Source of the DNA: Archaeoglobus sp.
Lineage (GTDB): Archaea > Halobacteriota > Archaeoglobi > Archaeoglobales > Archaeoglobaceae
Length of the DNA: 36,360 nt
NCBI GenBank assembly: GCA_003978865.1
Contig: QNXS01000036.1
Coordinates: 1 to 36,360, forward strand
Reading direction: 5' to 3'
Part shown: in pieces, positions 1 to 3,182 of the stretch
Position numbering within the stretch: the stretch's first letter is position 1
Layout: every line of letters starts with the position of its first letter
Position numbers and translations under genes: made by a program
Notes under the pieces: generated by a model
What the model was told of the DNA's origin: nothing
Seen by the model: only the letters and a program-made list of their open reading frames with translations
Database searches by the model: none

Positions 1-1277
1 CTATAAACAGTTCCGTAAACATCAAACCACCCAAAAGGATAGTAGATACCTTTGTACACGTATATATCCACACTTTCATCGGATTTTGGATTTAAGTCAT
101 TTATAGCCAGATACCACGTCCCAGTGTCTGGGTTGGTAATAACATACCCGTAACCATCCTGAGTGCCTACATTCCAAACGTCCGATGCCTGCACATAGTA
201 ATCCTGATTTGGAGATTTAACATAGAGAGAGATCGGTCTTATACCATAGCTATAGTAAAAAGTATCAAAGTCTGAAGTTGTTACAAAAATCAAGTAATCG
301 TAGTTACTGTTGTTTATATTCACGCCAATTACAGATGGGGAGGATGTGACATTTCCACTTACACTCGAGTACGGGGTGTAATCATTCATACTTCCAGATG
401 CATCGATTGTATGAATCACAGTAATATTTGTTGAACTTTGATTTATCCCATTACCAAAGAGAAATATATTTACAGTTGAGCTTTCTCCAGGAGCAATAGA
501 TGCCGGAACAACATACTTATCGATGTAAAGTTCCGGTTGTGGATTTGAGACAACACTAACGTTAACACAGTCATAGCTTACATAACCAAGACTATCCTTC
601 ACCTCAAGGGTTATAGTATAATTTCCAGTAGAGCTAAAATTCCAAGTTGTTATTCCGGTATCCGGATTTACTGGGTCATACTCTTTAAAAGATTGAAACA
701 GTATTCTCTTATAGTTTTGACCAGTGATGATCCATCTATAGTAAAGAGTACCCTCTCCGTATGAGTGAGTCATGTCTAAAGTTATGTTTTCACCAACAGT
801 GGCTTCAGTTGGATGAACAATAGCCACCGCCGTGGGTAGCAGGTGTATGGACGAATTCAGTAGTATTTCGTGGGTAATTTCGCTGCTGAAAGTTCTGCCC
901 TTTGTTATAAAACCCAATGTTGTTCTACCTATGTTTTCTTTTTGAGTCCATATATTTGATTTAACTATCAGTTCGTTATTACTCAATTCTACACTGTAAG
1001 TCTCCTTACCTACCTCAGCAGGCATGTAAACTTTACTCTTAAAAATACCGTTCTTCGGTGAAACGAGTAGCATATCTGTTATCTGAGCTGAAATTTCGCT
1101 TGCTACATCCTGAAACTGATTTTTCATTGCATTAGCAGTTGGCATTCTCGACATTAGTGTGCTAAGCTGAGGTACTATGAATGCCATGAGCAATGCAAGT
1201 ATTCCAACGATCAGCATGTATTCAACCAGTACTGAAACACCATTCCTGTCAGACAACAACAGTCTCAGTATCTTCAT
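1..1277 (-). CDS. Prepilin-like surface protein with PKD-like and VWA-like (DxSxS MIDAS) segments; partial, runs off the left edge
   Basis: Absent from the ORF track because it has no stop in the window. My translation from ATG at 1277 stays open to position 1: MKILRLLLSDRNGVSVLVEYMLIVGILALLMAFIVPQL... (prepilin-like charged N-terminus plus H-domain), then ...TVGENITLDMTHSYGEGTLYYRWIITG...TITLEVKDSLG... (PKD-like), then ...TVIHTIDASGSMNDYTP... (MIDAS start). Confidence 0.75.
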   Translation of the reverse strand, partial: MKILRLLLSDRNGVSVLVEYMLIVGILALLMAFIVPQLSTLMSRMPTANAMKNQFQDVASEISAQITDMLLVSPKNGIFKSKVYMPAEVGKETYSVELSNNELIVKSNIWTQKENIGRTTLGFITKGRTFSSEITHEILLNSSIHLLPTAVAIVHPTEATVGENITLDMTHSYGEGTLYYRWIITGQNYKRILFQSFKEYDPVNPDTGITTWNFSSTGNYTITLEVKDSLGYVSYDCVNVSVVSNPQPELYIDKYVVPASIAPGESSTVNIFLFGNGINQSSTNITVIHTIDASGSMNDYTPYSSVSGNVTSSPSVIGVNINNSNYDYLIFVTTSDFDTFYYSYGIRPISLYVKSPNQDYYVQASDVWNVGTQDGYGYVITNPDTGTWYLAINDLNPKSDESVDIYVYKGIYYPFGWFDVYGTVY

Positions 1278-1659
1278 AATCAACACCTGAATTAAAGAAA
1301 ACTATATTAACCGTATAACAAGAAATTTCATCGTTACTGGTATATTTAACATCGACAATATTTATACTTGCATAACATCCATGTTCAGCATAGAGTTTTT
1401 CGACTTGCTGATTTACCTTCTGAGCATAGTTTAAAAAGTTATTCGGATTATTCTCGGCATATTTTTTTAAATCAATGAATGCTATTCTTCTAAGATTTTC
1501 TATTGCATACTTTGGAAAAGTTAACTGAGTTGTACTGCTCTCCATACCCGCAAGTACATTCTGAGTGTAAACAAGAGAGAGTTCAGCAAGTAACACCGAT
1601 ATGAAGAGCGTTAGTATTATTATTATCTGACCTCTATTATCTCCAATTAAACCTGCCAT
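1249..1659 (-). CDS. Small prepilin-like membrane-anchored protein
   Basis: 136 aa; MAGLIGDNRGQIIIILTLFISVLLAELSLVYTQN: short charged N-terminus, Gly, then a hydrophobic helix; overlaps neighbouring genes. Confidence 0.7.
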   Translation of the reverse strand: MAGLIGDNRGQIIIILTLFISVLLAELSLVYTQNVLAGMESSTTQLTFPKYAIENLRRIAFIDLKKYAENNPNNFLNYAQKVNQQVEKLYAEHGCYASINIVDVKYTSNDEISCYTVNIVFFNSGVDYEDTETVVV

Positions 1660-2210
1660 AGTGTCAACCTCACCTCCAAAACAACCGGATACCCAGAACT
1701 TTCATAACTTGAATTACTTACAAACGGGGAGTCGCTCACGAAATCGTTGCTGTCTATTACGATGTACCTAGAAGCTGTCACAGTATTTGAAACAGGATTA
1801 GTGTTCGTGAGGCTGATTTTTTCAACACTACCAGTTGAAAAGTTGTAGTAGTAAACAACAAAGCTAAAATTAACATCCACAGGCAAACATTCTTTTGTTG
1901 AATTTATAAGAGGTAAAACAACTGTATTAAAGTTGCTTGAATTTAAATGCTCTAAAACATACTCGAGCGTGTCCTGAGTTGGTGATGAGGGATTATCAAG
2001 TACCCTCAGTGTATCCTTAGCGTACTGACTTAGCTGAACGTCAACTACCTGAGTTGACTGGGGAGCAATTATCAGAGTTGAACGGAAAAGGAAGTAAGCT
2101 ACCAAAAGCAAAAGCATGGCAGCAACTATACTTTCAAGTGTAAAAGCCTGTGCTTTACAGTCTCTTCCAAACTTACCCCCCACAAGCTTACTTATTCCCG
2201 TCATATACAC
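1647..2210 (-). CDS. Prepilin-like protein
   Basis: 187 aa; ...FGRDCKAQAFTLESIVAAMLLLLVAYFLFRST: FTLE-type prepilin N-terminus and a single N-terminal hydrophobic helix; overlaps the next gene. Confidence 0.7.
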   Translation of the reverse strand: MYMTGISKLVGGKFGRDCKAQAFTLESIVAAMLLLLVAYFLFRSTLIIAPQSTQVVDVQLSQYAKDTLRVLDNPSSPTQDTLEYVLEHLNSSNFNTVVLPLINSTKECLPVDVNFSFVVYYYNFSTGSVEKISLTNTNPVSNTVTASRYIVIDSNDFVSDSPFVSNSSYESSGYPVVLEVRLTLWQV

Positions 2211-3113
2211 CTACCACACGCAAACAACAAGTTTGGCAACTATTCTCCCCGCGATGTACTGTCCCGCACTTGAGTAAATCAAATATCCAGCTAAATTATG
2301 AGATATAACCGTCAAGTTTACAGTTCCAGAAATGGCAGATATCTGACCAGCAACGTTATAAACCCCCGGTGAAAGAGAACCTCCATTGGATGGAATTCTG
2401 AGTATTTTCTCTCCACCCCATCCATTTCCTTTGCTTATTTTCACTATTATCCAACTGCCACTGCCATTACCCCAGATCTGAGTTTTTGTTACAACAAATG
2501 TAAAAACTCCCACGGGAGCAGTGACATTTAGAATTTTAGTCTTGTTAACTCCATATTCTGACGTGGTTATATCGTAGGTGAAAGATGCATTGTTTAAATA
2601 AACTATTCTACAATATTTAACAACATCTTTAAATTTTGGTATGGGTTTACCTATTAGCAGTAATGGCTTACCGTTGTAGTATGAATAAACAGGATAAGAC
2701 GTATTGCTATAAACGTACTGTAGAGATATATTGTAGTTCTCAATACCGAACATGTTCGCAATGCTATCGTATCCCTCCTGCTCGTACATTTCCGAAAAGT
2801 TCAGAATTTTTGGTATTGACAGCTCACACATTTTCCCATCACACAGGCCAGCTCTAACTGTTACCTCGCTGTCCTTCCAGTGATCCTCCCAGTTCGTACC
2901 ATTACATGTTCCATTTGTCCAGTAACCGGGACTTTCAGTAAGAAGAGCGGAGATTCTGTAAGCATCGGAACTCAGAGAAATATCACTTCTCTGGACAACA
3001 AATATTGAAGGAAGATACTGCAGAATGAATATAAACGTGACCATAAATACAGTTAATCCAACAAGTACATCCAGACTCAACTGACCCGATTTTGATCCAG
3101 TTTTTAGCTTCAC
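2211..3113 (-). CDS. Prepilin-like extracellular protein
   Basis: 300 aa; MKLKTGSKSGQLSLDVLVGLTVFMVTFIFILQYLPSIF: prepilin-like N-terminus and a long Asn/Thr/Ser/Tyr-rich exterior. GTG start; abuts the next gene with 0 nt gap. Confidence 0.7.
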   Translation of the reverse strand: MKLKTGSKSGQLSLDVLVGLTVFMVTFIFILQYLPSIFVVQRSDISLSSDAYRISALLTESPGYWTNGTCNGTNWEDHWKDSEVTVRAGLCDGKMCELSIPKILNFSEMYEQEGYDSIANMFGIENYNISLQYVYSNTSYPVYSYYNGKPLLLIGKPIPKFKDVVKYCRIVYLNNASFTYDITTSEYGVNKTKILNVTAPVGVFTFVVTKTQIWGNGSGSWIIVKISKGNGWGGEKILRIPSNGGSLSPGVYNVAGQISAISGTVNLTVISHNLAGYLIYSSAGQYIAGRIVAKLVVCVW

Positions 3114-3182
3114 TATTATTATGGTAATAATACAAACTATAAATTGATTTCGTTGTCAGCTATGGATGCCTAAAATCAGGAA

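Follow-up and report, generated by a model that had tools for sequence, protein, structure and literature searches.

A six-gene prepilin cassette of an Archaeoglobaceae genome, a candidate PilB4-type pilin set with a VWA-bearing pilin

The left end of a 36,360-nucleotide stretch of Archaeoglobus sp. DNA carries four consecutive minus-strand genes, g1 to g4, that a first-pass annotation made from the letters alone had described as prepilin-like, with a VWA domain in the largest. The stretch (the window) corresponds to the entire contig C2 of an Archaeoglobaceae metagenome-assembled genome (MAG), fragmented and 76.5% complete. Open reading frames (ORFs) lie exactly where they had been placed, with junctions at 2211/2210, 1659/1647 and 1277/1249. 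Over its first 149 bases the window matches the end of a second contig of the same MAG, C42, without a difference; no longer overlap between the two was found, and an unresolved k-mer overlap is the apparent cause. The g4 frame stays open across this join and encodes 797 amino acids (aa), with 76% identity along the entire length to an unbroken gene of the sister genome G040. Because the overlap is exact, g4 stays open and the G040 counterpart is unbroken, the window and C42 are taken as one cluster. C42 completes g4 and adds two further prepilin-like genes, g5 and g6, so that the cluster comprises six genes (g1-g6), all on one strand and either overlapping their neighbours or at most 13 bases from them:

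Window 1..149, equal to C42 8839-8987 (unstranded): exact 149-base contig overlap, by sequence identity, at the end of C42.
Window 2211..3113, minus strand: g1, prepilin-like, 300 aa, Pfam DUF7287 at the N-terminus (E 3.7e-7).
Window 1647..2210, minus strand: g2, prepilin-like, 187 aa, Pfam DUF7288 (E 5e-16).
Window 1249..1659, minus strand: g3, prepilin-like, 136 aa, weak DUF7261 match.
Window 1..1277 (5' part), then L007 8987..7731 on C42, minus strand: g4, 797 aa in total.
Window 390..404, minus strand: DxSxS motif (DASGS) of the metal ion-dependent adhesion site (MIDAS) in the g4 VWA domain; the Thr and Asp of the site are encoded on C42.
L007 7717..7022 (C42), minus strand: g5, prepilin-like, 231 aa, DUF7289.
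L007 7018..6230 (C42), minus strand: g6, prepilin-like, 262 aa, DUF7289.

Past g6, C42 continues with an unrelated 136-aa ORF and then trp-type genes. The locus thus runs on beyond the left edge of the window, as had been anticipated, in the form of two more prepilin genes; the ATPase, platform and peptidase genes that might have been met there are absent from the six-gene cluster.

Each of the six proteins starts with a short leader with basic residues, after which come Gly or Ala and a run of hydrophobic residues (with a slash for the presumed cut, KS-G/QLSLDVL in g1, K-A/QAFTLE in g2, R-G/QIIII in g3 and N-G/VSVLVEY in g4). If the cut falls after the Gly or Ala, the +1 residue is Gln in g1-g3 and Val-Ser follows in g4-g6; cleavage at this position is listed for characterised archaeal pilins (PMC4371748). 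A rule-based scan for class III leaders, run on 96 ORFs of at least 90 aa from eight pieces of the own genome, returned 11 positives: all six cassette genes, the archaellin FlaB, which served as positive control, and four others, a background of about 4-5%. The leader motif is kept across orthologs of the cassette genes, and the same genome encodes a PF01478 prepilin peptidase on contig C9. Processing of the six products by a prepilin peptidase is predicted from these sequence features. The class III-type N-termini initially seen in four genes were all recovered by the scan, and the leaders make it unlikely that these regions are ordinary transmembrane anchors.

The cassette is widespread. g2 occurs in 48/59 genomes of the class Archaeoglobi, and DUF7288 in 161/247 genomes sampled across the phylum and in one of 14 control genomes, that of Haloferax volcanii. 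The g1-g6 order is kept, with small overlaps, in essentially all intact Archaeoglobi loci examined; this near-fixed order answers the question of synteny raised by the first-pass annotation, and the homologs are co-located across relatives. Its proposal of a minor-pilin set stands, given the class III-like leaders, the differing heads, the conserved order, the ATPase and platform genes adjacent in relatives and the peptidase in the genome. Archaeoglobi cassettes are of two kinds, with either a long VWA-bearing g4 or a bare DUF7266 g4 of about 130-148 aa. Because the DUF7266 module occurs alone as the fourth gene, the core of g4 is regarded as a small pilin of the ordinary sort, which either gained the VWA part or, in the bare form, lost it. 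Two of the VWA-less cassettes, those of G023 and G055, carry a long extension on the third pilin and not on the fourth (L048 6683-9070, 795 aa, with a Big_7 Ig domain; L146 7043-9766, 907 aa).

Since the order is conserved, and since a PilB ATPase and a TadC platform protein are encoded beside the cassette in several Archaeoglobi and in haloarchaeal-type loci, the cassette is, by its gene content, the pilin set of a euryarchaeal PilB4-type type IV pilus (T4P), not a new kind of filament. DUF7287, DUF7288, DUF7266 and DUF7289 occur in the order of this set, the match of the third gene to DUF7261 is weak, and the associated PilB and TadC are adjacent or near in relatives and encoded in trans in this genus. 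This system was predicted as euryarchaeal clade 2 by Makarova et al. (2016; PMC4858521), who describe additional ATPase domains at the PilB4 locus and name arCOG03926 and arCOG02911; g5 and g6 might, at a guess, belong to arCOG02911. The "uncharacterised surface filament" of the first reading is therefore a system already predicted, with families listed in Pfam (DUF7287/7288/7266/7289). Neither experimental work on this filament nor a mention of DUF7288 was found in the literature searched. The H. volcanii set (HVO_1160 locus; PMC4858521) shares the order of DUF7287, DUF7288, a DUF7261-like small pilin, DUF7266 and DUF7289. By contrast, in the present cassette g1 is longer, PKD and VWA domains extend g4, which has no VWA in the H. 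volcanii family, the set closes with two short DUF7289 pilins (g5, g6), and PilB and TadC are unlinked, with PilB in another clade than the ATPases of VWA-less cassettes.

The most distinctive component is g4, a pilin module fused to a VWA domain with a complete MIDAS (DxSxS, Thr, Asp). Its start is the ATG at 1277, with a GTG at 1286 also possible, and its layout is a DUF7266 pilin module, a PKD domain, a VWA domain with an insert of about 220 aa, and a C-terminal β domain. The window holds only the first VWA strand (DASGS) and the remainder lies on C42; the VWA domain assigned at first sight is nevertheless borne out by a significant Pfam match in a full-length g4 ortholog. Orthologs display the Pfam order DUF7266-PKD-VWA, and the three MIDAS elements are present in all 14 aligned long g4 orthologs. 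The insert sits at the VWA rim, after the first VWA strand and ahead of the remainder of the domain. A model of the G040 ortholog (mean predicted local distance difference test score, pLDDT, 80) is a chain of β domains in which the VWA is well predicted, preceded by a 57-residue N-terminal helix (16-72) of low confidence. Among solved structures, the g4 profile matched PilB, a pilin of Streptococcus sanguinis (E 3.8e-7), and the tip protein Mfa5 (E 1.5e-8), and fold comparison of the model matched the pilus tips Mfa5 and PitA. The analogy with the S. sanguinis pilin makes an adhesin exposed at the tip the likeliest role of g4, and its VWA head may bind metal and mediate adhesion.

The S. sanguinis protein is likewise a modular pilin. 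Two arms flank its metal-binding MIDAS, and it has been modelled at the pilus tip and shown to mediate adhesion (PMC8179133; PDB 7b7p). Both proteins join a pilin module to a MIDAS-VWA with insertions at the MIDAS rim. However, the profile match covers the VWA part only, and the archaeal g4 has a different pilin module, an additional PKD and C-terminal β domain, and an insert of about 220 residues in place of two smaller arms. The common architecture is most simply explained by convergent domain grafting. RrgA, PitA and Mfa5 also carry a VWA head at the filament tip, but belong to sortase or type V pili, which are assembled without PilB/TadC. Bacterial TadG is a VWA protein of a Tad-type pilus system and is proposed to be a membrane anchor (PMC4858521). 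g4 could similarly be a membrane-anchored protein tying the pilus to the cell surface instead of a subunit of the filament tip; this is unlikely, as g4 has a class III-type site and its DUF7266 module, without VWA, is the fourth gene of homologous cassettes.

The assembly partners are encoded outside the cluster. PilB and TadC genes adjoin VWA-type cassettes in G020 and G018 and lie one gene away in G033; they adjoin VWA-less cassettes in G014, G015, G017, G035, G039 and at one of two G057 loci. The haloarchaeal-type cassette has a very long PilB adjoining or close to it in seven of eight sampled loci, mostly accompanied by TadC, in agreement with the published account of the PilB4 locus (PMC4858521). 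In a 41-row ATPase tree, the ATPases of the three VWA cassettes form a single clade (99/97), to which none of the seven from VWA-less cassettes belongs. Own-genus PilB orthologs of this clade (74-76%) occur in 4/6 genomes (G040, G041, G042, G044), being absent from the two least complete, and are not beside the cassette where the neighbourhood was examined. The matching TadC (~70%) is present in all six genomes of the genus, here on contig C76; the cognate PilB was not found in this incomplete assembly and is present in relatives. Separation of ATPase/TadC genes from pilin genes is known for such systems (PMC4858521). The same separation speaks for a rival reading, in which the VWA cassette decorates the filaments of another ATPase/TadC pair, or the archaellum, for which the same genome has a locus, instead of those of a cognate machinery, and an exchange of pilin sets between ATPases has been proposed for Archaeoglobus veneficus (PMC4858521). 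Such decoration is nevertheless improbable, given that in G020, G018 and G033 the cassette lies next to or close to ATPases of a single supported clade and that orthologs of the VWA-clade PilB and TadC are retained in the genus.

The g1-g6 operon is thus best read as a dedicated PilB4-type pilin set, forming a tip or minor-pilin complex that displays a VWA adhesin (probability about 0.72). As the leaders and gene content suggest, the six proteins would be inserted by Sec and cut behind the conserved Gly or Ala by the genome's PibD-like peptidase; their assembly would fall to a PilB ATPase and a TadC platform encoded elsewhere, the cognate TadC on C76. The six differing pilins may build the priming, initiating or tip complex of the filament, with the bulk subunit provided either by g5/g6 or by a PilA-type pilin encoded elsewhere. 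The g4 pilin module would anchor in the filament and display a PKD stalk and a VWA head whose MIDAS, rimmed by the inserted β domain, may bind surfaces or neighbouring cells in a metal-dependent manner.

Several points weigh against this assignment. The class III leader calls derive solely from a rule-based scan, and the tip position, complex formation and ligand are deductions. The α1 helix of the g4 model has a pLDDT of about 50-70. A Foldseek search with the g2 model returned no significant match among solved structures, pilins included (best E 0.066, ribosomal uS3), so that the structure models of the cassette proteins fall short of proving a pilin fold. In this genus the assembly genes lie apart from the cassette. 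Members of the PilB clade are, moreover, encoded in genomes that lack a VWA cassette (27/27 versus 12/16; p = 0.015 before correction for relatedness), and the co-occurrence is weakly informative.

It is also quite doubtful that the cassette forms a pseudopilus like that of type II secretion systems, a short six-pilin secretion piston whose VWA pilin recruits or gates cargo: the operon pilins are all minor-type and mutually different, with no clear major pilin, and inserted domains are found in large pseudopilins such as GspK (discussed in PMC8179133), but PilB and TadC are of euryarchaeal T4P types, a MIDAS-VWA is typical of adhesins, and the genus has genes for PilA-type pilins at other places. 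A further objection is that archaea of this group have a single membrane and are not known to possess a secretin.

The region upstream of g1 contains two further elements:

Window 3137..3152, minus strand: box CGAAATCAATTTATAG, resembling a TFB recognition element (BRE) and TATA box, starting 24 bases upstream of the g1 start codon.
Window 3114..3132, minus strand: palindrome TATTATTACCATAATAATA, separating the TATA box from the g1 start.

The CGAAATCAATTTATAG box is kept in three orthologous sister loci (L155, L156, L157) and is likely the promoter of the whole operon. Its distance from the g1 start and its conservation suggest a single operon, possibly leaderless. The palindrome is a possible operator or start-site element; AT-rich sequences loosely like it precede some orthologs.

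The C-terminal strand of g1, KLVVxVW, is similar to the C-terminal motif of g2, EVRLTLW, of which the core residues are invariant and which forms the last strand of the modelled sheet. The g2 model (mean pLDDT 82) consists of helices 25-48 and 52-70, two shorter helices and a four-stranded sheet, and had no convincing match among viral structures. Pfam matches of g3 to Fve and Rv2525c-like domains were far below cut-off and were dismissed as chance. Searches of NCBIfam gave sub-threshold matches only, and PHROGs nothing useful.

Other filament genes were seen in the course of the survey. The PilB on contig C81 (L010 3666-4838), cut by the contig end and adjoining thiolase and MinD/Mrp-like ATPase genes, was considered as partner of the cassette; it falls into another clade of the ATPase tree and is probably not cognate. 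In G023, a PilB-like ATPase of 1028 aa (L139 4245-7331) has a long extension and a long branch in the tree. Next or close to other Archaeoglobi PilB/TadC pairs lies one large prepilin-like ORF each (435-784 aa); these may be further modular pilins (L120 3391-5745, L127 2921-4498, L137 9968-11275, L138 624-2879, L142 7717-9969, L145 2792-4420). The archaellum locus of the MAG, on contig C58 (L009 232-7419), encodes archaellin, FlaG/F-like, FlaH, FlaI and FlaJ proteins.

An adhesin-bearing version of the archaeal T4P does not seem to have been described: no report of an archaeal pilin with a VWA domain was found in a literature search mostly at title and abstract level, and the supplements of the 2016 census may list such genes. 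Whether the Archaeoglobi evolved a modular MIDAS-VWA tip pilin on a PilB4-type pilus independently of bacteria, recruiting different tip-complex pilins as adhesin carriers, is an evenly balanced proposition, its second part suggested by the extended third pilins of G023 and G055. The bare DUF7266 pilin of homologous cassettes offers a natural before/after pair for the graft, and the parallel with S. sanguinis PilB and the sortase-pilus tips suggests that VWA heads were repeatedly grafted onto filament tips across domains. Archaeal type IV minor pilins are almost all uncharacterised, and the attachment of archaeal pili to surfaces is poorly known. The cassette combines a defined pilin set, a likely cognate ATPase/platform clade and a pilin whose adhesive head can be recognised and whose metal site can be mutated; the function of an archaeal pilus tip is therefore directly testable.
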